Source of the DNA: Clostridiales bacterium
GTDB taxonomy: Bacteria; Bacillota; Clostridia; Oscillospirales; Oscillospiraceae
Assembly: GCA_021201475.1 (NCBI GenBank)
Contig: JAJQEV010000010.1
Coordinates: 1-64,000 of the forward strand
Length of the DNA: 64,000 nt
Direction of reading: 5' to 3'
The notes beneath the pieces are model-generated. The model was not told the origin of the DNA, searched no databases, and saw only the letters and a program-made list of their open reading frames with translations. Below are positions 3,692-37,701 of this stretch, piece by piece (the first letter of the stretch is position 1; each line of letters starts with the position of its first letter). Both the position numbers and the translations under genes were made by a program.

Positions 3692-6211
3692 ATGAGCTTA
3701 TATGAAGTCATCGCATCCCGCAACGCCTCCGGCCTGGAGCGCACCGCCGTCTGCCAAATGCGGAAGGACGGCGTTACCCTTCGCACGCTGACCTACCGCC
3801 AGCTCTTCGAGGGCATCGAGCGCTACTATCAGGTGCTGCTCCAGGCGGGTTATCAGCCCGGCGACCGCATCGGCATCTGCGGGGCCGCCTGCCCGGAGTG
3901 GCACATGGCCTTTTACGCCATCTCCCGGCTGGGCTGCACCTGCGCCGCCCTGGACCATTCCTACGCCCATGAGGAGATGGTACATATTGCGAAAAAGGCC
4001 CGGCTGCGGGGGCTTTACCTGACCGACGCCACCGCCGCCGTACTGGACGACCCCATGGAGGGGGTGAACCTGTACCGGCTGGAGGACGGCAGTCAGACCC
4101 AGTCCGTCCCCCGCGTGGGGGAGACGGAGTTTGCCAATCCGGAGGCGGCAGTGCTGATTTTTTCCTCCGGCACCACCTCCACCGCCGCAGGCATCCTCCA
4201 CTCGGAGGAGAGCGCCGTCCGCTCCATCGAGATGATCCTCCACTGCAACTATGTGGACAATGACCGCCAGCGGTTCATGGCCTTCCTGCCCAACTCCCAC
4301 ATCTACGGGCTGTACGCCCAGTGCATCGCTCCCGCCCTCCATCAGAGCAGCGTCTGCTACATGGAGGAGCTCAGTGCCGCCTGCATTATGGGGGCCTTCG
4401 GGGCCTACCACCCCACCATTTACTGCGGCGTACCCAAGGTGTACGAGCTGCTGTACAGCTCCATTCAGCAGAAGATTCAGGCCAGCCGGGCGGCCTCCGT
4501 CCTCTTTCATGCCCTCCATCCCCTGTGCCTGGCTGTCCGCAAGCGCTGGGGGCTAAACCCTGGCAAGGTGCTGTTTTCCTCCATCAACCGGGGCATCGGC
4601 GGCAGCGCGGATATTCTGGTGTGCGGCGGCGCGCCCATGCGGCCTGAGGTGGCGGACTTCTTCTTCGGGGCGGGGTTCCGGGTGCTCATCACCTACGGGG
4701 CCACCGAGACCAGCATCCCCACCCTGGGGAACTACGGGAAGCGCCTGACCACTGACAGCTGCGGCAGGCCCTACCCCGGCGTGGAAATGAAGCTCTCCGA
4801 GGACGGGGAGCTGCTGCTGAAGAACCCCTCCCTGATGCTGGGCTACTTTGACGACCCGGAGCGGACGGCGGAGGCCTACACCCCGGACGGCTGGTTCCGC
4901 ACCGGCGACCTGGCCAGCCTAGACGAACGGGGTAACATCCACATCAATGGCCGCTGCAAGGAGAACATCGTCCTGGCCACCGGCAAGAAGGTGGCCCCGG
5001 ACGACATCGAGGCCAACTACGCCGGTATTCCCGGAGTGGAGGACTTCACCGCCTGCGGCATCCCCTGCGGCGAGGACGGAAGCTATGACGAGGTGCATTG
5101 CTTCGTGGTGCAGGAGGAGCAGGCGGAGACGGAGGCGGTGGAGGCCGCCTTCCGCAGCCGCAGCGCGGAAAGCCCCCAGAACATGAAGCTCCACGGCATC
5201 CACTTCGTCCCCCGCATCCCCCGCACCGCCCTGGGCAAGCCCAAGCGCTACCAGCTGCGGAAACTGCTGGAGGCGAAACGTTCCTCTGTGGAGGAGGCTC
5301 TGGCCGACGCCCCCCGGCTCAGCACCGTGGAGGAGAAGGTGGCCTATGCGGTGCGGCAGGTCACAGGGCAGGACAGCTTCGCGCCGGAGAGCCGGCTGCG
5401 TCAGGATCTGGCGCTGGACTCCCTCTCCGCAGTGGAGCTGTGCGTCCAGCTGGAGAAGCTGACCGGTGTGCGCATCGACGATATGCTGCACCAGGACGCC
5501 ACCGTGGGCGACCTGATAAGCTGGTGTAGCCACCCGGAGACGGTGGTGCGGAAGAAGTTGATCCAATACCCCCTGACCCGCAAGAATATCGACTACACGC
5601 TGATGAACATCGCCTGGCTCCTGATCCGCACCTTCTACAGGGTCACTGTCCGGGGGGCGAACCTGCTGCCCACTGACACGGGCTACATCATCTGCGCCAA
5701 CCACGTCTCCAACTTTGACTACCTCTACCTGACCCTGACCTTCCGCAAGGAGCGGCTGAGCAAGCTGTGCTGCATGGCGAAGCAGGAGCTGTTCCAGGGT
5801 TCCTGGCTGAACCGGCTGCTGTGCCGGGTGGGAGGCATGGTACCCATTGACAGGACTGGCGCCGTGGGGGACAGTATGCACGCCCTGGCCGCCCGCCTGA
5901 GGGAGAAGTGGGGCGTCCTGGCCTTCCCGGAGGGCACCCGCAGCAAGGACGGCCGCCTGGCCGCCTTCAAGAAGGGGCCCGCCATGCTGGCGGTGCAGAC
6001 CGGCGTCCCCATCGTCCCCGTCTGCATCAAGGGGGGCTTTGAAATCTTCCCCAAGGGGCACAAGCTGCCCAACCTGTTCAACTTCAAGACCGGCCACCGG
6101 TACCGGGTACAGGTGCTCTATGGAGCGCCCATCGATCCCGCCGGGAAAACCCCGGAGGCCCTGACCGCCCTGGTGCGGCAGGCCGTGGCCGAGCTGGAGG
6201 CCAGCGCGTAA
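3692..6211 (+). CDS. Fused acyl-CoA/acyl-ACP synthetase - acyl carrier protein - PlsC acyltransferase
   Basis: One 839-residue polypeptide carries three lipid domains. Residues 1 to about 520 are an AMP-forming acyl-activating enzyme: YGATET, WFRTGD and the C-terminal catalytic region TALGKPKR are present. The phosphate-binding loop reads SSGTTSTAAG, where the family norm is SGTTGxPKG, so the usual Lys is absent. Residues about 530-610 are an acyl carrier domain with a phosphopantetheine serine in LDSLS (about 576). Residues about 630-839 are a PlsC/LPLAT acyltransferase with NHVSNFD (about 669) and FPEGTRS (about 745). The inferred job is to activate exogenous or recycled fatty acids, hold them on the built-in carrier and transfer them to a lysophospholipid. 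The domain order is the reverse of enterobacterial Aas. RBS GAGGAGG precedes the ATG. Confidence 0.88.
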   Translation: MSLYEVIASRNASGLERTAVCQMRKDGVTLRTLTYRQLFEGIERYYQVLLQAGYQPGDRIGICGAACPEWHMAFYAISRLGCTCAALDHSYAHEEMVHIAKKARLRGLYLTDATAAVLDDPMEGVNLYRLEDGSQTQSVPRVGETEFANPEAAVLIFSSGTTSTAAGILHSEESAVRSIEMILHCNYVDNDRQRFMAFLPNSHIYGLYAQCIAPALHQSSVCYMEELSAACIMGAFGAYHPTIYCGVPKVYELLYSSIQQKIQASRAASVLFHALHPLCLAVRKRWGLNPGKVLFSSINRGIGGSADILVCGGAPMRPEVADFFFGAGFRVLITYGATETSIPTLGNYGKRLTTDSCGRPYPGVEMKLSEDGELLLKNPSLMLGYFDDPERTAEAYTPDGWFRTGDLASLDERGNIHINGRCKENIVLATGKKVAPDDIEANYAGIPGVEDFTACGIPCGEDGSYDEVHCFVVQEEQAETEAVEAAFRSRSAESPQNMKLHGIHFVPRIPRTALGKPKRYQLRKLLEAKRSSVEEALADAPRLSTVEEKVAYAVRQVTGQDSFAPESRLRQDLALDSLSAVELCVQLEKLTGVRIDDMLHQDATVGDLISWCSHPETVVRKKLIQYPLTRKNIDYTLMNIAWLLIRTFYRVTVRGANLLPTDTGYIICANHVSNFDYLYLTLTFRKERLSKLCCMAKQELFQGSWLNRLLCRVGGMVPIDRTGAVGDSMHALAARLREKWGVLAFPEGTRSKDGRLAAFKKGPAMLAVQTGVPIVPVCIKGGFEIFPKGHKLPNLFNFKTGHRYRVQVLYGAPIDPAGKTPEALTALVRQAVAELEASA

Positions 6212-23891: not shown

Positions 23892-26396
23892 ATGTTGGAA
23901 CCTGCACAGGCCCAGCGCTTCTGCCAGCTGCGGCGGGCCGTCATTGAAACAGAATACCTGCACCTGAACCCGGAGCAGCGCCAGGGCGTCTTTGCCACGG
24001 AAGGGCCGTTGCTGCTGCTGGCCGGGGCGGGCAGCGGAAAGACGACGGTACTGATTGACCGCATATCCAACCTGATTAAATACGGCTGCGGCAGCGACCC
24101 CCAATGCGGCGAGACGCCGGATTGGGCGACCCCTGAGGACGTGGAGTTCCTGGAGGGCTATCTGGCGCATCCCGCCCCGGAGGATGCCCGCCGGGCGGAG
24201 ATGCTGTGCCGGTGCCATCCGGTCACACCATGGTCCATCCTCGCCATTACCTTCACCAATAAGGCCGCCGGTGAGCTGAAAGACCGGCTGGCAGCCAGGC
24301 TGGGGCTGGAGGCGGACGGCGTCTGGGCCTCCACCTTTCACTCCGCCTGCGTCCGCATCCTGCGCAGGCATATTGACCTGCTTGGCTTTTCCACTTCCTT
24401 CACCATTTATGATACGGATGATTCCCTTCGGGTGGTGAAGGATGTGCTGAAATCCTTCAACCTGGACGACCGGACGCTGGCGCCCCGCGCCGTCCTCTCT
24501 GCCATCTCCAAGGCCAAGGAGGAGATGCTGCTGGCCGGGGATTACGCCCAGAAGGCCAGGGACTCCGGAGATCTTCACGGGCAGCAAATCGCCAGGGTCT
24601 ATCAGGAGTATGAGCGCCGCCTGTGGGAGGCCGACGCCCTGGACTTTGACGACCTCATTCTCCATACGGTGAGACTGCTGGAATCGGAGGACGAGGTGCG
24701 CTCCTACTGGCAGGATAAATTCCGCTATGTGCTGGTGGATGAGTACCAGGACACTAATCACCTGCAATACCTTCTGGTGTCCCTCCTGGCGGGAAAGTGG
24801 GAAAACATCTGCGTGGTGGGCGACGATGACCAGTCTATCTATCGCTTTCGCGGCGCCACCATTGAGAACATCCTACAGTTCGAACATCAATACCAGGGCA
24901 CCCGTGTCATCCGGCTGGAGCAGAACTACCGCTCCACCAAGAACATCCTGAGCGCGGCCAACGCCGTCATTGGCAATAACACCGAGCGCAAGGGGAAAAA
25001 TCTGTGGACGGAGCATCCCGACGGGGAAAAGATTAAATGCTACTCCGCCGTCAATGAGGCAGACGAGGCCCAGTACATCTCCGCCCAAATCATGTTGGCG
25101 GTCAGCTCCGGAATGGCGTGGAAGGATTGCGCTGTGCTGTACCGGATGAACGCCCAATCCAACGCCATCGAGCAGGGCTTCAAGCGCAACGGCATCCCCT
25201 ATAAGGTGATCGGCGGCATGAAATTCTTTGACCGGGCAGAGATCAAGGATATGCTGTCCTACCTCTGCGTCATTCACAACGAGGCGGACGATTTGCGCCT
25301 CCGCCGCATCATTAACGTTCCTGCCCGCGGCATTGGAGCCAAGACGGTGGACAGCGCTACCGAGCTGGCGCACCAGGAAAATCAACCGATCTCCGCCATT
25401 CTCCGCAAGTCCCGCGCCTATCCGGCGCTGTCCAAGAGCAGCGTCAAGCTAGACGCATTTCTGGCCATGATTGATGATTTGCGCCGGAAATCGGAGACGA
25501 TGGAGCTCTGCGACTTCTACGATGAGGTGGTAACAGCCACCGGCTATGTAGCGGCGCTGGAAGCGAAGAATACCTTTGAAAACCGGAACCGCATCGAAAA
25601 CGTCCGGGAGCTGCGCTCCAACATCCAGTCCTATGTGGAGAACGCCGTCCAACCCACTCTGGCGGGCTTCCTGGACGAGGTAGCTCTTTACACCGACCTG
25701 GACAGCGCCCAAGACAGCGACAACTGCGTCCTGATGATGACCATGCACGCCGCCAAAGGGCTGGAATTTCCCTGGGTCTTTGTGGCCGGTGTGGAGGAAG
25801 GCATCTTCCCGGGTCTGCGGGCCATTGGCGAACAGGATGAGATGGAGGAGGAGCGGCGGCTGTGCTATGTGGCCATGACCAGGGCCAAGGAGCGGCTGTT
25901 CCTGACCTCCGCCACCCAGCGAATGCTGTTTGGGCGCACCAACTCCAACCAGCCGTCCCGCTTCATTAAGGAAATCCCCGACGGCTATCTGGAAAAAAGC
26001 GGCCGGGCCTATGAGACCGACAAGCGGGAGTATGGCGGCCGCTGGAAAGACACTGACCAGTCTCAGTCCAACCAGGAAGGCGCCGAGCATGGGCAGGGCA
26101 GCCGCTATGGCAGGCAGCCGCACCAGTCTCTGAGGAACCGCGGCCCCCTGGGCGGAGGCATCAGTATTCACCATGACGCGAAGCCCACCGGCCAGCGGGC
26201 GGTACAGGCCTCCTTCCAGCTGCTGAGCCAATACCAGAAGGGTACCGTGGTGGAGCACACCGCCTTTGGCCGGGGCATGATCGTCAACGTGCTGCCTATG
26301 GGCGGCGATGCGTTGGTGGAGATTGCCTTTGACACGGTGGGCACCAAACGGCTGATGCTGAAAGCCGCCGTACAGCATATGACGCGGAAGGAGTGA
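23892..26396 (+). CDS. pcrA: UvrD/PcrA-type superfamily 1 DNA helicase
   Basis: This 834-residue ATP-dependent 3'-5' helicase acts in nucleotide-excision repair, plasmid/rolling-circle replication and recombination control. SF1A motifs appear in order: Q motif LNPEQRQ; Walker A AGAGSGKTT (about residue 45); Ia ITFTNKAAGELKDR; II VDEYQDTN; III VVGDDDQSIYRFRGA; IV QNYRST; V TMHAAKGLEFPWVFV; VI YVAMTRAKERL. About 45 extra residues sit between motifs I and Ia (GSDPQCGETPDWATPEDVEF), usual for gut Clostridia. The C-terminal beta-barrel that docks RNA polymerase in PcrA is present (VVEHTAFGRGMIVNV). It is followed by an HD hydrolase in an overlapping arrangement. Confidence 0.95.
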   Translation: MLEPAQAQRFCQLRRAVIETEYLHLNPEQRQGVFATEGPLLLLAGAGSGKTTVLIDRISNLIKYGCGSDPQCGETPDWATPEDVEFLEGYLAHPAPEDARRAEMLCRCHPVTPWSILAITFTNKAAGELKDRLAARLGLEADGVWASTFHSACVRILRRHIDLLGFSTSFTIYDTDDSLRVVKDVLKSFNLDDRTLAPRAVLSAISKAKEEMLLAGDYAQKARDSGDLHGQQIARVYQEYERRLWEADALDFDDLILHTVRLLESEDEVRSYWQDKFRYVLVDEYQDTNHLQYLLVSLLAGKWENICVVGDDDQSIYRFRGATIENILQFEHQYQGTRVIRLEQNYRSTKNILSAANAVIGNNTERKGKNLWTEHPDGEKIKCYSAVNEADEAQYISAQIMLAVSSGMAWKDCAVLYRMNAQSNAIEQGFKRNGIPYKVIGGMKFFDRAEIKDMLSYLCVIHNEADDLRLRRIINVPARGIGAKTVDSATELAHQENQPISAILRKSRAYPALSKSSVKLDAFLAMIDDLRRKSETMELCDFYDEVVTATGYVAALEAKNTFENRNRIENVRELRSNIQSYVENAVQPTLAGFLDEVALYTDLDSAQDSDNCVLMMTMHAAKGLEFPWVFVAGVEEGIFPGLRAIGEQDEMEEERRLCYVAMTRAKERLFLTSATQRMLFGRTNSNQPSRFIKEIPDGYLEKSGRAYETDKREYGGRWKDTDQSQSNQEGAEHGQGSRYGRQPHQSLRNRGPLGGGISIHHDAKPTGQRAVQASFQLLSQYQKGTVVEHTAFGRGMIVNVLPMGGDALVEIAFDTVGTKRLMLKAAVQHMTRKE

Positions 26397-29204: not shown

Positions 29205-29412
29205 GAGCTTCTACCTCCCGGAAGATGTCCTCCATCTCCTCCGCCTCGTTGGCAGAGACCGTTTGCAGGATGCAGCCCGCGTGTACCAGCACCCAGTCCC
29301 CCACCTTGACCGGTACCAGTCCAGCCCGAGCCTGAACGATATTTCCGCTAAAATCCACCGTGGCGGTGCGGCCTTCCACCGCAGTCACTTTTCCAGGCAA
29401 TGCAACACACAT
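29194..29412 (-). CDS. hypC: Hydrogenase maturation chaperone HypC
   Basis: This 72-residue OB-fold chaperone carries the iron ligand group from HypD to the hydrogenase large subunit. It starts with the invariant MCVALPGKV; the Cys2 thiol binds iron after removal of Met1. The rest (VDFSGNIVQARAGLVPVKVG and GDWVLVHAGC) is typical. AGGAGGAAG precedes the ATG. It is positioned between hypF and hypD. Confidence 0.95.
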   Translation of the reverse strand: MCVALPGKVTAVEGRTATVDFSGNIVQARAGLVPVKVGDWVLVHAGCILQTVSANEAEEMEDIFREVEALGV

Positions 29413-29427: not shown

Positions 29428-31689
29428 TCATTCAAATCGCTGATCTGTCACCTGCTGCGCCAAAATCGTGACCCAGGCCTGCCCCAGGGCGAGGCCGCCG
29501 TCTCCCGGTGGCACCTTACGGTTGTAGTAAACGTTGAAACCGTCCGCCCGCAGCAGAGCCGCAGTCCGTTCCAGCAGGATACGGTTCTGAAAGGTGCCGC
29601 CGGACAGGGCCACCTGCTCCACGCCGCTGACCTCCCGCTGGCGCCGGCAAATCGCCAGTGTCAGCTCCGCCACGGCATGGTGGAAGCCCAGGGCCAGCGA
29701 TGCAGGGGAGGCTCCGCGCTCCTGCCCTTCCCGCATAGCCCGTATCAGGGCGGCGCTGTCCCCCACAAGGCAGCCGCCCTGTTCCTCCACCGGGAAGGAC
29801 AGGGGCCAGGCCGATTCCGCCTGTGCTGCCGCCTGCTCCAGGAGGATGGCACACTCCCCTTCATAGCTGTTATAGTGGCAGATGTCCAGCAGCGCTGCCG
29901 CCGCGTCGAAGAGTCGTCCCATGGAGGAGGAGCGCACCGTGTTGACACCCAGGCGGAGCGCCGCTTCCACTGTTTGGAATCGCGCCCCTTCCCCGGTCAA
30001 ACCAGCTTGAAGCAGATAGGCCGTCAGGCTGGCATCGGCATTTCTGGCGCTCTCATCGCCGCCCAGCATGGGGACTGCGGCGATATGCCCCATACGCACC
30101 ATATTGGGGCCGGCGCAGAGCAGAAATTCCCCGCCCCAAACGGTGCCGTCCGCGCCATAGCCGGTGCCGTCAAAGGCAACCCCCAGCACAGGCCCGGTCA
30201 GGCCGTACTCCGCCATGGCCGAGGCGACGTGGGCGTGGTGATGCTGGACGGCGGCGCAGTCCCCATAGCGCTGATGGGTATAGTTCCCGGAAAAATATCC
30301 GGGGTGTCTGTCACAGATGCCACGCTCCGGCCTGATTTGAAACAGCTCTTCCATCCGCTCTGCCGCAGCCTGGTAGGATTGGAACGCATCCAACTCCTCC
30401 AAGTCCCCAAAGTGCTGGCTGAGATAGACCCGGCTGCCGCTGACCAGCCCGAAGCACGCCTTTAAATCGCCCCCCGCTGCAAAAAAAGGCTTCTTTGCTT
30501 TCTGCGGCAGGTTGATCGGCTCCGGCACATAGCCTCTGGCCCGGCGGAAGAACTGCGTCTCCCCTTCCACAATGCGGGCCACGGAATCGTCCAGCGGGGT
30601 CAAAATTTCCCGCCCGTGGGACAGCACCCCGTCCAGTAGTTCGCTCTCCCGCAGCCAGTTCAGCATAGGCTCATCTGCAATTACCATAGGCGCGCCGGAG
30701 CGGTTGCCGCTGGTCATCACCAGCGGGCCGCACTCCTCTGACAGGAGGATTTGCAGCGGATTGCAGGGCAACATGGCCCCGATTTCCAGGCTGCTGCCGC
30801 AGCAGGAAGGGGCAAAGTCCATACCGGGCCGCTTTTTCAGCAGGACAATGGGCCGGGCTGCTGAAGTCAGCAGCCGCTCCTCCTCATCGGAGAGACAGCA
30901 ATACCGCCGAACCATCCCCACATCGGGGAACAGCACCGCGAAGGGCTTCTTCTCCCGGCCCTTCAGCTGCCGCAGGCGGCGGTTCGCCTCCTCACAGTTG
31001 GGGTCGCAGGCCAGGTGATAGCCGCCGATGTCTTTCACAGCCAGGATTTTGCCGTCTTTCAGCAGTTCCACCCCCCGTTGGAGGGCCGCTTCCCGGGTGA
31101 GATGCTCCGCCCTGGTGTCCAGGGCCAGCACCGGGCCGCAGCTGTGGCAGGCGATGGTCTGGGCGTGACGGCGCACATCCTGTTTGGCCGTATATTCCCT
31201 TTGGCAGTCCTCGCACATGGGGAATACGTCCATCGTGATATTGCACCGGTCATAGGGCAATGCTTTGAGGACGCTGTAACGGGGGCCGCAGGCCACGCAG
31301 CTGATGAAGGGATAGCGGTATCGGCGGTTCCCCCTGTCATGCAGTTCCCGCACACAGCGGGGGCAGGTGGGCAGGTCGGGCGGAATCAGGGGCGGCTCCC
31401 CGGCAGACGGTTCGCTCTCCACAATGGCAAAGCTGCTGTTCTGCCCAGGGGGCAGTTGCTCTCGCTGAATGCGGTCAATACGGCCACCAGGGGGACACTC
31501 ACCTTCCAGACGCTCCACAAAGCGCTCCAGCACCGCCCGCTTCGCCGTTGCCTGAATCGTCACAATGCCGCCGCTGTTGCGGACGGTACCGCCAACCCCC
31601 ATCTCCTCCGCCAGACGGGCCACAAAGGGACGGAATCCGATGCCCTGCACCATGCCATATACGGTAATGCGCTCCGCCGCAGCAGCCAT
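29428..31689 (-). CDS. hypF: Carbamoyltransferase HypF
   Basis: HypF converts carbamoyl phosphate to carbamoyl-AMP and transfers it to the HypE cysteine. The 753-residue protein has all four parts. There is an acylphosphatase domain (GIGFRPFVARL, residues 1-90), then two zinc fingers (CPRCVRELHD..CVACGPRY and CEDCQREYT..CHSCG). A YrdC/Sua5 domain (KDIGGYHLACDP, MTSGNRSG) and a Kae1-like carbamoyltransferase domain (VQHHHAHVAS, FDGTGYGADG, ALSGGTFQN) follow. The start at 31689 follows GGAGGG. It is 68 bp downstream of echF, with a strong hairpin in between. HypA and HypB, the nickel inserters, are not in the window. Confidence 0.96.
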   Translation of the reverse strand: MAAAAERITVYGMVQGIGFRPFVARLAEEMGVGGTVRNSGGIVTIQATAKRAVLERFVERLEGECPPGGRIDRIQREQLPPGQNSSFAIVESEPSAGEPPLIPPDLPTCPRCVRELHDRGNRRYRYPFISCVACGPRYSVLKALPYDRCNITMDVFPMCEDCQREYTAKQDVRRHAQTIACHSCGPVLALDTRAEHLTREAALQRGVELLKDGKILAVKDIGGYHLACDPNCEEANRRLRQLKGREKKPFAVLFPDVGMVRRYCCLSDEEERLLTSAARPIVLLKKRPGMDFAPSCCGSSLEIGAMLPCNPLQILLSEECGPLVMTSGNRSGAPMVIADEPMLNWLRESELLDGVLSHGREILTPLDDSVARIVEGETQFFRRARGYVPEPINLPQKAKKPFFAAGGDLKACFGLVSGSRVYLSQHFGDLEELDAFQSYQAAAERMEELFQIRPERGICDRHPGYFSGNYTHQRYGDCAAVQHHHAHVASAMAEYGLTGPVLGVAFDGTGYGADGTVWGGEFLLCAGPNMVRMGHIAAVPMLGGDESARNADASLTAYLLQAGLTGEGARFQTVEAALRLGVNTVRSSSMGRLFDAAAALLDICHYNSYEGECAILLEQAAAQAESAWPLSFPVEEQGGCLVGDSAALIRAMREGQERGASPASLALGFHHAVAELTLAICRRQREVSGVEQVALSGGTFQNRILLERTAALLRADGFNVYYNRKVPPGDGGLALGQAWVTILAQQVTDQRFE

Positions 31690-31756: not shown

Positions 31757-32920
31757 TTAAAGGTCAATGCACTTCTTGGGGCATACCCCGGCGCAGACGC
31801 CGCAGCGGACGCACAGCTCGTTGTCAACCATCCAGGTCTTGGTCTTGCGGTCTACGGTCAGCGCACCGGCAGGGCACTTCTTCGCGCACAGCGAGCAGTA
31901 CACACAAGCGTCGCCCTTCTTAGGCAGGTCGGTGAACTCGGCATTGTAGCCCGGCTCCAGGCAGGCAATGATGAAGTCCGCTTCCTCTTCCACCGGCACA
32001 TCCTTGGTGACATCGGGCAGTGTCAGAGCCTGCTTCGGACAGTTTTCTACGCAGATGCCGCAGCGGATACACTCGGCGTTGTCCACTTCCCAAATCTTTT
32101 CCTTCCGGTCCACCACGATAGCGCCCTTGGGGCACTGCTTGGAGCAGAGGCCGCAGTAGACGCAGTTCTCCGGCGTGGAGACGGGCAGGTCGGCCCACTC
32201 ATCCACATAGTCCGGCATAATGCAGGCGGGAACGGGAATCTCCTCCCCGTCCTTGTCAAACTGGGGCACATAGGGCCGACGGCCCAGCTTCCGCTGCACG
32301 CCCCACTCCTTGTCGGAAGCGGCCATAGCCGCCTCGTGGCCGGGGGCCATGGCGCTCTTCATGCTCAGGGCGTTCTCCGGGCAGGTGGAGATACAGCCCT
32401 CGCAGCCCAGGCATGCCTCCGCGTTGACGGACCAGCCGTCCTCCACCGTGATAGCCCCGGCAGGGCACTGGGCCGCGCAGGCGCCGCACAGGATACAGGC
32501 GTCGTTCACCACAGGTACGGCCATAGCCGGACCGGTGGGAATCGCGCCGGGCTCTGTCGTGTTGCCGGTGAAGGCGGCAGGAGCCTTGATTTGATTCGTC
32601 TCAATCACCTTATCCACATTGGGCGTAAAGTAACCTGGCACGATGGAAAGGGCCGACTTGGGGCAGACCTTCACGCAGTTGCCGCACTGGACGCAGTCAA
32701 AGCGGTTCATGTTCCAGGTGCCGGCTTTCCGATCAATAAAGATGGTGTCCGTAGGGCAATGGGTGCTGCACAGGCCGCAGAGGACACATTTGCTGTGATC
32801 CAGCAGGATGCGGCCCCGGGAACGTTCCGGGTAAACCGCCGGTTCGTAGGGGTAGTTGGTGGTGTACGGCTTGGAGAACAGGTTGCGCACGGCAACCCTG
32901 GCAAATGTCATCAATCCCAT
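31757..32920 (-). CDS. echF: EchF-like subunit expanded to an eight-cluster polyferredoxin
   Basis: This subunit passes electrons from ferredoxin to the hydrogenase. The N-terminal 95 residues match EchF/NuoI with two CxxCxxCxxxCP motifs (CVLCGLCSTHCP, CVQCGNCVKVCP). Three further two-cluster modules follow in tandem (CILCGACAAQCP/CLGCEGCISTCP, CVYCGLCSKQCP/CIRCGICVENCP, CVYCSLCAKKCP/CVRCGVCAGVCP). This makes eight predicted [4Fe-4S] clusters in 387 residues, whereas EchF is normally about 120-170 residues with two. The start lies 7 bp after echE. The extra clusters may form a wire to an additional donor or a storage relay; this is inference. Confidence 0.88.
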   Translation of the reverse strand: MGLMTFARVAVRNLFSKPYTTNYPYEPAVYPERSRGRILLDHSKCVLCGLCSTHCPTDTIFIDRKAGTWNMNRFDCVQCGNCVKVCPKSALSIVPGYFTPNVDKVIETNQIKAPAAFTGNTTEPGAIPTGPAMAVPVVNDACILCGACAAQCPAGAITVEDGWSVNAEACLGCEGCISTCPENALSMKSAMAPGHEAAMAASDKEWGVQRKLGRRPYVPQFDKDGEEIPVPACIMPDYVDEWADLPVSTPENCVYCGLCSKQCPKGAIVVDRKEKIWEVDNAECIRCGICVENCPKQALTLPDVTKDVPVEEEADFIIACLEPGYNAEFTDLPKKGDACVYCSLCAKKCPAGALTVDRKTKTWMVDNELCVRCGVCAGVCPKKCIDL

Positions 32921-34365: not shown

Positions 34366-34809
34366 TTAGATGCCCTCCTTTGGATCCTCGGTATAAGACT
34401 CATACTTTTTGTCCAGGATGGCCAGGGCCTGCACCACGCCGTCAATGATGGACTGGGGCCGGGCCGCGCAGCCGGTGACGTACACGTCCACCGGAATCAC
34501 TGTATCGGTGCCGCCCTGGATGTTGTAGCAGCTCTTAAAGATGCCTCCGGTGCAGGCGCAAGTGCCCACCGCCACCACCACCTTGGGATCGGGCATCTGG
34601 TCGTAAATCTGCTTCAGCACCGGGGCGTTCTGAGCGTTGCAGCCTCCGGTGGTCAGCAAAATATCCGCGTGCATGGGGTCGCCGGAGTTGATGATGCCAA
34701 AGCGCTCCAGGTCATAGCGGGGCATGGTAGATGCCAGAACCTCAATATCACAGCCGTTGCAGCTGGAGCAATCGTAGTGAATCAGCCAGGGAGATCTGGA
34801 TAATTTCAT
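34366..34809 (-). CDS. echC: Hydrogenase small subunit (EchC-like, NuoB family)
   Basis: This 147-residue subunit carries the proximal [4Fe-4S] cluster that connects the ferredoxin subunit to the [NiFe] site. The ligands are visible as CSSCNGCD (residues about 14-21), then GTCACTGG near residue 102 and VTGCAARPQ near 131. The length is that of EchC. It is homologous to NuoB of complex I. The gene follows the broken echB by 14 bp. Confidence 0.93.
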   Translation of the reverse strand: MKLSRSPWLIHYDCSSCNGCDIEVLASTMPRYDLERFGIINSGDPMHADILLTTGGCNAQNAPVLKQIYDQMPDPKVVVAVGTCACTGGIFKSCYNIQGGTDTVIPVDVYVTGCAARPQSIIDGVVQALAILDKKYESYTEDPKEGI

Positions 34810-34823
34810 CTTCTACCCCCTCC

Positions 34824-35701
34824 TTAACGAATCATCTGCAAAATCAGCAGATTGGTGCCGGCGGCCACCAGGGTAACGCCCCATGCCACCTGAAACATGA
34901 GCTGCCACTTGACGCGGGCACAGGTGTTGTCAATCAGCACTTCAAAGAAGTAGACCAGGACAATGCAGACCAGCGCCACCACCACGGACCACCACTGGTT
35001 GTTGGCAAAGAAGATGCCGACAAGCCCCATCAGCAAGACCTGTTCATACCAGTCCGCAATGGTGTAGCAGGCCAGTGTCGGGCCGGACAACTCTGTTGTG
35101 GTACCCTTCACCATCTCCTGATGGGCATGGTGAGAGGTGGAGATGTCAAAGGGACTTTTCCGCAGCTTGATGGCCAGAATCACCACCACCCCGATGAAAA
35201 AGCCGGGCAGCATCACAATGGCGGGCAGGCCCTCATGCGTGCCGATGGTGGATACCCGGAAGGTGCCGTCTGCCAGATAGAAACCCACGCCGGTGAGCCG
35301 GTGAGCAGCAGCATCGGCTCATAGGATGCCATCTGAACCAGCTCACGGTTGGCACCCATGGTGGAGAAGGGGGAGCCGGTGCAGCTGGCCGCCACCACCA
35401 GGAACATATCCGCTGTGGTCAGGGAGAAGAAGCACATCATAATGTCATTGCCGCTGAAAAACAGCGTACCGGACAGAATGACAAACAGCGTATAGGAGCC
35501 AATCATAATCAGCTGCATACGGCTGACCGTCATCAGTTCCTTTTTCAGCAGCTTTTGCAGATCCCAGAATGGCTGCAACACGGAGGGGCCTTTCCGCCCC
35601 TGCATACGGGCGGACACCACGCGGCCCATGCCGTCCAGCAATCCTCCCAGCAGTGGGGCAAACAGAAGGTATCCAACTCCAACAATCACACTCAGCATCA
35701 T
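34824..35701 (-). pseudogene. echB: EchB-like membrane subunit (NuoH family), frameshifted by 8-bp duplication
   Basis: This is the membrane anchor that links the soluble arm to the ion-pumping subunit. Starting at ATG 35701 or 35698 the frame encodes the NuoH-like LLDGMGRVVSARMQGRKGP and QPFWDLQKLLKKE, then ASYEPMLLLT. At 35290-35305 the octamer CCGGTGAG occurs twice in tandem. The second copy shifts the frame, giving about 25 aberrant residues and a stop codon. Deleting one copy restores LLLTGVGFYLADG and a full 289-residue protein (FDISTSHHAHQEMVKG and the rest to 34824). As read here the subunit is split. It could be a slippage switch, a real mutation or a sequencing error. Confidence 0.9.
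35290..35305 (-). repeat. 8-bp perfect tandem duplication inside echB
   Basis: CCGGTGAG (35290-35297) is directly repeated at 35298-35305. One copy is the in-frame state; two copies put the gene out of frame by +8. Confidence 0.93.
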
Positions 35702-37626
35702 GCGACCACACCTCCCAACAGCAGAATCATACAAAGCACGATGATAAAGCTGGAGATTGCCAGACTGGGGAACATCAGCTTTTTCTCCCCGAACCAGTCC
35801 TCCATGTACCAGGAAGTGGTCTGAATCTCCTTCTCCTCCCCCATGGAGTCCACAAAGTGCTGGCTGTCTCCGGTATTGATACCAGCCACATAGCTCATCA
35901 CCGGATGGGGGTGGGAACGCCTGGTCACCAGGAACACCATGAGAGGAATCACGAACACACAGAACAGCAACACCACCATAAACAGCAGATTGCCGGTGGT
36001 GATGGTGGGGTCTACCTCACCGTAAAGTTCGGTGACAATGGGCAACACCAGGTTGGTGGACAGCGCAGGGAAGCTGACGCACAGCAGAATCATAACAGCG
36101 GCGTGGGAGAACAGGGAGACGTACTCATTCCTGCCAGTGATGTCCTTCGTTGTGCGGATATGGTCCACCACCAGCAGGCGGCACAGCCACTTCGACCAGT
36201 ACAGGCAGGTGGTGGCGGAGCCAAAGCAGACAAACAGCGGCATAACTGTTCCCAGCAGGCCGCCTGCATCCACGAAGGCTTTCAGCGCAGCCCACTTGGA
36301 GACCAACATACCGAAGGGAGCCAGGAACATACCGCAGATGCCAATGACCATAACGACAGCCAGCTTTGGCATCCGCAGCATCAGGCCATGCATGGTCTCC
36401 ACGTCACGGCTGCCGGTGGAAATCTCCACCGCGCCAACAGACTGGAACAGCATGGACTTGGACACCGCATGGAACATAATCAGGAATACCGCCGCCCAGT
36501 AGGTCTCCGACGCGCCGATACCGGCGCAGGCGGTGATCAGGCCCAGGTTGGAGATGGTGGAATAGGCCAGAATCTTCTTGGCGTCCGTCTGGGAGATGGC
36601 CAACAGCGAGGCCACAAAGAAGGTGAAGCCGCCAATAAAGGCCACCATGTACCCGGCCCAGTTGTTTTGCAGGGCAGGGGCCAGCCGTAGCAACAGATAC
36701 ACGCCTGCCTTGACCATGGTGGCCGAGTGCAGCAGAGCGGAGGTGGGGGTGGGCGCCACCATAGCGCCCAGCAGCCACTGGCTGAAAGGCATTTGGGCGG
36801 ACTTCGTCAGCGCCGCAAAGCTCAGAAGCGCCACACAGGCAACGGCCACCATATCCCCGCCCTTCCCGACGGATACCATTGCCGACAGGCTGAAGGAGTG
36901 ATGGGTCACGGCAAACCAGATGATGCCCATCGCATAGCCCAGGCCGCCCAGCAGGTTCATCCACAGGGCGCGGAAGCTGTTATGTACCGCTTCATCCGTT
37001 CTGGTGTAGCCAATCAGGAGGAAGGAGCAGACGGAGGTGATCTCCCAGAAGAAATACATCCAGGTCATGCTCTCCGACAGTACCAGGCCGAACATGGCCC
37101 CCAGAAAGACAAACAGCATGGGGAAGAAAAAGCCTCTCCGGTCTGCAAACTCTGTGTGGTGATGCACATAGCCCCGCATATAGCCCACGGCATAGATGAC
37201 AATCAGGCCGCCGATGATGGCAACGATCAGCATCAGGATGACGCTGAGCCGATCCACCAGGATATGGGGCGTCTCCTCCACAGAGCCGCCGAACAGCTCC
37301 ACCCACAGCACGCCAAGGGTCTGGACGACGCTGAGCAGTACGATGGGATACTTCTTGTACTTGACGCTCAGATAGACCACCAGGCACATCAGGAACAGGT
37401 CGCCGACGATCATCAGGTGATCCACCAGCGAGGTCTCCTGAAACAGCAGCAGGTCTTCCTGCCCATTGGAAAGCCACCAGATGCTGACAGAGACAGCCAG
37501 CACCATCGTGACGCCGGAACCGATGTAAACGCAGAGGCCCCGCGCTTTGTCATCCTTCACCAGCGCCAGGACTGCGGCCATCAGAAACGGAAACAGAATC
37601 AGGACGGGTATCAAATTCACAATCAC
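35698..37626 (-). CDS. echA: Ion-translocating subunit (EchA-like, NuoL/MrpA family)
   Basis: This is the large membrane subunit of the Ech-type complex, homologous to the NuoL/NuoM antiporter-like subunits and expected to pump H+ or Na+. The core family block is visible: MTWMYFFWEITSVCSFLLIG with the essential Glu, followed by KSAQMPFSQWLLGAM and PTPTSALLHSATMVKAGVYL. The GTG start at 37626, with AGAGAAGG before it, gives 642 residues, the usual EchA size; the open frame upstream to 37830 lies in the leader and past the -10 element. Its stop codon overlaps the echB start (ATGATG). It is first in the operon. Confidence 0.92.
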   Translation of the reverse strand: MIVNLIPVLILFPFLMAAVLALVKDDKARGLCVYIGSGVTMVLAVSVSIWWLSNGQEDLLLFQETSLVDHLMIVGDLFLMCLVVYLSVKYKKYPIVLLSVVQTLGVLWVELFGGSVEETPHILVDRLSVILMLIVAIIGGLIVIYAVGYMRGYVHHHTEFADRRGFFFPMLFVFLGAMFGLVLSESMTWMYFFWEITSVCSFLLIGYTRTDEAVHNSFRALWMNLLGGLGYAMGIIWFAVTHHSFSLSAMVSVGKGGDMVAVACVALLSFAALTKSAQMPFSQWLLGAMVAPTPTSALLHSATMVKAGVYLLLRLAPALQNNWAGYMVAFIGGFTFFVASLLAISQTDAKKILAYSTISNLGLITACAGIGASETYWAAVFLIMFHAVSKSMLFQSVGAVEISTGSRDVETMHGLMLRMPKLAVVMVIGICGMFLAPFGMLVSKWAALKAFVDAGGLLGTVMPLFVCFGSATTCLYWSKWLCRLLVVDHIRTTKDITGRNEYVSLFSHAAVMILLCVSFPALSTNLVLPIVTELYGEVDPTITTGNLLFMVVLLFCVFVIPLMVFLVTRRSHPHPVMSYVAGINTGDSQHFVDSMGEEKEIQTTSWYMEDWFGEKKLMFPSLAISSFIIVLCMILLLGGVVA

Positions 37627-37701
37627 AGCCTTCTCTCTTTCAGCGTGTAACAAGAGGATGCAGACATACCCTTCGTGTGGCAGTTCATCCGATTTGCTGT
37701 G

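Follow-up and report, generated by a model that had tools for sequence, protein, structure and literature searches.

The membrane-bound Ech hydrogenases belong to the group 4 [NiFe] enzymes and comprise six subunits, EchA-F, of which EchF is a short two-cluster protein. Structures have been solved for relatives of the NuoH-like membrane subunit EchB, among them subunit M of Mbh (6cfw) and subunit 4 of formate hydrogenlyase (7z0s). Genes can be altered at short repeats in two familiar ways: contingency genes carry simple sequence repeats whose copy number decides whether the frame is open, and slipped-strand or microhomology-mediated tandem duplication forms a class of loss-of-function mutation. 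In Thermoanaerobacterium saccharolyticum, according to one study (PMC12288451), an earlier deletion of echB did not strongly affect either hydrogen or the fermentation products, and an nfnA deletion strain carried a single-base change in echB, Thr185Ala, at 50% frequency. Literature searches, some of them naming Ech, found no published tandem-duplication frameshift in echB.

The window analysed here, a 64-kb stretch of a 2.69-Mb genome assigned to a Clostridiales bacterium, contains an Ech-type group 4 [NiFe] cluster of six genes encoding NuoL-, NuoH-, NuoB-, NuoC- and NuoD-like subunits and a ferredoxin subunit, in which the NuoH-like gene is broken. We regard it as probable that an 8-bp tandem duplication specific to this lineage cuts EchB short after 135 of its 289 residues, likely leaving the sole [NiFe] hydrogenase of the genome, which is of the Ech type, without a membrane anchor and this energy-saving enzyme disabled. 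The features of the locus are as follows.

35698..37635, minus strand: echA, antiporter-like membrane subunit, open; PF00361; aligned over its full length to four of five relatives, the fifth (G014) being frameshifted
35213..35701, minus strand: 5' part of echB, 135 native and 27 foreign residues, then TGA; PF00146 profile positions 7-146
35289..35306, minus strand: period-8 tract, 18 bp, 2.25 copies; the extra copy, missing in 6/6 close relatives, shifts the echB frame
34824..35288, minus strand: 3' part of echB, in another frame than the 5' part, open from GTG; PF00146 positions 147-296
34366..34809, minus strand: echC, NuoB-like small subunit, open; PF01058
34022..34363, minus strand: echD, NuoC-like subunit, open; PF00329
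32927..34006, minus strand: echE, [NiFe] large subunit, open; PF00346 and PF00374
31757..32920, minus strand: echF-like polyferredoxin, open; PF00037, eight stretches
29428..31689, minus strand: hypF, open; TIGR00143 over residues 8-740 of 753; one-base difference near the 3' end
29224..29412, minus strand: hypC (matched stretch); PF01455
28146..29204, minus strand: hypD, open; TIGR00075
27150..28145, minus strand: hypE, open; TIGR02124

The [NiFe] large-subunit profile PF00374 matches once in the genome, inside the ech operon, above its cut-off at residues 43-111, and the translation carries an N-terminal RICGIC and a C-terminal DPCVSC, CxxC motifs which we take to be the hydrogenase signatures of this subunit. 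HypC is encoded in the cluster and HypA elsewhere in the genome. The [FeFe]-type profile PF02906 has two matches, one that spans nearly all of the profile and another limited to positions 1-163. Beyond the two halves of echB, no NuoH-family (PF00146) match is present in the 2.69-Mb genome, which thus has no back-up NuoH gene. On the assembly as given, echB therefore has the make-up of a frameshift pseudogene, with a frame broken relative to its orthologues and no second functional copy. The EchF-like subunit (31757-32920, minus strand) is a polyferredoxin of 387 residues with eight Fer4 stretches, 95-98% identical in five relatives and longer than the usual EchF. In the genus sample, NuoH-family proteins are of two kinds, an EchB-like kind in 8 genomes, the present one included, and a kind 31-36% identical to it in 22, never both in one genome.

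On the plus strand, CCGGTGAG is doubled head-to-tail at 35290-35305, inside the minus-strand echB, and Tandem Repeats Finder reports a period of 8 at 35289-35306 (2.2 copies, 100% matches), so both the sequence and the program bear out the tandem doubling described in the original prediction. The 16-mer formed by the two copies occurs once across the genome. An exact tandem octamer is not remarkable by itself, as the window contains three against a simulated mean of 1.27 (range 0-4, 60 first-order simulations); the other two lie at 5951-5966 and at 31361-31376, the latter within hypF and absent from the list of insertions relative to other genomes. The echB octamer stands out, when aligned with related loci, as an insertion relative to all six close relatives that breaks a conserved frame. 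Where the window could be aligned to these genomes, it has no other tandem-duplication insertion of at least 4 bp.

Translation of echB begins at an ATG at 35701, and the two-copy frame runs into foreign residues before reaching a TGA at 35213-35215, 403 bases ahead of echC. As had been proposed, the one-copy reading gives a complete NuoH-type protein of 289 residues and the two-copy reading loses the frame; the last native residue is 135. Among the 154 residues lost are the RKSPFDISTSHHAHQEMVKG stretch and roughly half the hydrophobic segments that a simple hydropathy scan locates in the intact database protein P0095.

The close relatives used for comparison are loci L002-L007, the more distant L008-L010 of the nine found being left out, and the close named relatives of the genome are metagenome-assembled genomes (MAGs). 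Their echB genes share about 90-93% DNA identity with that of the window; in all six the octamer is single, the frame is open at the site and the ten bases GCTCACCGGC are identical in the DNA alignment. This single copy supports the claim that a short tandem duplication frameshifts the NuoH-type subunit, and among these relatives there is no two-copy homologue with an intact frame. Of 32 genomes sampled from the genus, 30 match the one-copy EchB reading and two have no match. The matches are the genome's own split protein, five complete proteins at 93-95% identity, one at 94% that is cut by a contig end downstream of the duplication site (G011), one at 63% (G023) and 22 at 31-36%. An intact NuoH-like subunit is thus found in all five complete relatives and is missing from this genome. 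G023 (locus L018) was dropped from the DNA alignment, its open frame being known from the protein-match survey of the genus. Split EchB occurs in none of the other 29 matching genomes, each of which has one unsplit match, and of 200 genomes sampled from the family four match (E <= 1e-25), the present genome alone being split (0/3 others).

The nearest protein among the best 120 of 5721 listed, P0095, is intact, with 289 residues of which 285 are identical to the one-copy reading; the differences, at 52, 57, 83 and 122, are all N-terminal of the break. The window and P0095 have in common residues at 9, 18, 220, 224, 233, 268 and 284 that are not found in the relatives covering these positions (six relatives for 9 and 18, five for the rest). 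An intact allele, known as a protein, thus exists in this lineage or one very close to it, and together with the single copy in 6/6 relatives this would make the second copy new in the window's lineage. No close copy of the broken EchB was listed in searches with the two fragments, which could not list proteins of 289 residues: the best match to the 5' part, among proteins of 89-283 residues, was at 65%, and the top six to the 3' part, within the best 120 of 195, were at 56-60%. Two metagenomic EchB fragments diverge from the family alignment a few codons from the window's site, P0008 at residue 137 and P0003 at 141, and P0008 is the same as P0010 up to the point where it departs. A hot spot of breakage among such fragments was considered and set aside: a few of the 94 aligned do break near 137-150, but the search covers proteins of 89-283 residues and its hits include chimaeras and proteins cut by contig ends, so no claim is made on them.

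The second copy may have arisen by replication slippage or by a microhomology event, the simplest origin because the same two bases, GC, stand at each end of the duplicated unit in the single-copy form. EchB would be functionally null, as a conserved loop and the later hydrophobic segments lie within the 154 residues it lacks, and the Ech complex, judging from its family, would likely lose its membrane anchor. The 403 untranslated bases between the new stop and echC may in addition lower the expression of echC-F by polarity. Electrons would likely exit via the [FeFe]-type enzymes that remain, with no ion pumping linked to Ech. Slippage could delete the second copy again, although nothing here shows such a reversion. 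Provided the assembly is right, the loss-of-function part of this interpretation is supported by the comparisons above, and the probable nature of the duplication is that of a recent mutation of the ordinary kind, not of an ON/OFF switch.

The remainder of the operon is free of general decay, a point of the original prediction upheld by the alignments to relatives, the codon counts and the open frames of echA, C, D, E and F and of hypC, D, E and F, the single qualification being a one-base indel near the 3' end of hypF. In that region (29428-29460, minus strand) the window has one base fewer than all four relatives covering it and the HypF profile match ends earlier; the one-base gap is followed in G020 by another in the opposite direction. 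When 16 neighbouring genes were aligned to as many as six relatives each, the window showed no further net internal frameshift, in a scan that set aside compensated pairs and gene-end differences, including the one base in hypF. Codon counts of 14 genes against five relatives (G016 without hypE and hypD and with a partial hypF, G014 with a partial echA) show purifying selection. For echB, omega against the five relatives is 0.064-0.133 before the break and 0.074-0.113 after it; over the whole gene it is 0.093-0.119, the highest of the six ech genes in 5/5 comparisons (others 0.012-0.089). The sole EchB residue found only in the window, 122, is N-terminal of the break, and C-terminal of it the window is identical to P0095, which suggests that the high omega belongs to the gene in general, not to the window's lineage in particular, and is no sign of decay there. 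From the lack of another frameshift in the 16 genes and the selection still seen in both halves of echB, we infer that the break is recent, or an artefact.

An artefact is the main rival to the knockout reading: the octamer may have been doubled during the joining of contig ends or during polishing, the real echB being intact. The broken form is known from one assembly only, with no close copy of either part listed in the fragment searches and an unsplit EchB in every other sampled genus or family genome with a match, all as expected of such an error. A sister draft genome, G014, also has two frameshifts in a 29.5-kb contig: an extra G in a G run near 14871-14881 of contig C59 (locus L055) breaks the frame of echA, and a gene at about 26024-26067 of the same contig, presumably a GPH/MFS-type transporter from the reading of its sequence, is broken as well. 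Taken together, these two suggest that frameshifts in such draft genomes may be partly technical. The 18-bp tract is, however, shorter than a short read, and an error-prone assembly would sit poorly with a window that otherwise has neither a tandem-duplication insertion of at least 4 bp in its aligned part nor a net internal frameshift in 16 genes, so we consider an artefact unlikely, if a serious contender. The one-base frameshift in echA of G014 was also considered as an independent hit in a recurrent inactivation of Ech, a proposal rejected as the transporter frameshift on the same contig makes background an equal explanation. The split-gene scan behind these observations covered loci of 26 genomes. 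Its many pairs include several that are gene fusions or antisense shadow frames (the latter in the window too), and only echB, echA and the transporter gene were used.

The original prediction had also raised an ON/OFF switch, in which slippage keeps one- and two-copy cells side by side and renders the hydrogenase phase-variable. A perfect direct repeat that could delete, a near-identical intact allele (P0095) and the conserved remainder of the operon are compatible with it. As in phase-variable contingency genes, the copy number of a repeat inside the coding frame decides whether that frame is open. Unlike those genes, the window holds 2.25 octamer copies rather than a contingency-type array, with no variation seen within the genome, and has no counterpart in sampled relatives: the assembly contains one form only, the intact allele being known from a near-identical protein of another source; repeat number is invariant at one copy in 6/6 close relatives, whose ten-base sequence is identical yet in none duplicated; and split EchB is absent from the other matches in the genus (29 of 32 genomes) and family (3 of 200). 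The switch thus went unsupported, and we judge it very improbable. It is hardly to be expected, by the same token, that natural populations would keep one- and two-copy echB with 8-bp slippage toggling the membrane coupling of hydrogen metabolism as H2 levels change. A perfect short tandem repeat within a reading frame is, as a general lesson, not by itself evidence for a switch.

Continued production of EchB, whether its halves are made separately or the ribosome shifts frame in the overlap, is scarcely credible, for although both halves are open, each passes the PF00146 (NADHdh) cut-off and the 3' half has a GTG, this GTG has no Shine-Dalgarno-like stretch before it whereas GGAGG precedes echB and echC, no slippery sequence of a familiar kind was seen by eye in the overlap, and the fragment searches list no close split EchB.

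The knockout reading, if real, describes a natural one-step loss of the Ech membrane anchor in a genus in which 28/32 genomes have a [NiFe] large-subunit match, and would suggest that Ech coupling is dispensable for a time in at least one lineage. The exact tandem octamer, the two-base homology at its ends and the loss of the frame resemble loss by slipped-strand or microhomology tandem duplication, a case seen here once, in one assembly. The cluster follows Ech-type group 4 [NiFe] hydrogenases in its gene order, echA-B-C-D-E-F, and in its adjoining hyp genes, and differs from them in its frameshifted echB. The EchB of T. saccharolyticum, as described in PMC12288451, is the same subunit, altered there by a missense mutation in a laboratory strain that had been engineered and here by a frameshifting duplication; as no strong effect is reported for its deletion, the consequence of echB loss could be small, and losing the gene in nature need not carry a high cost.
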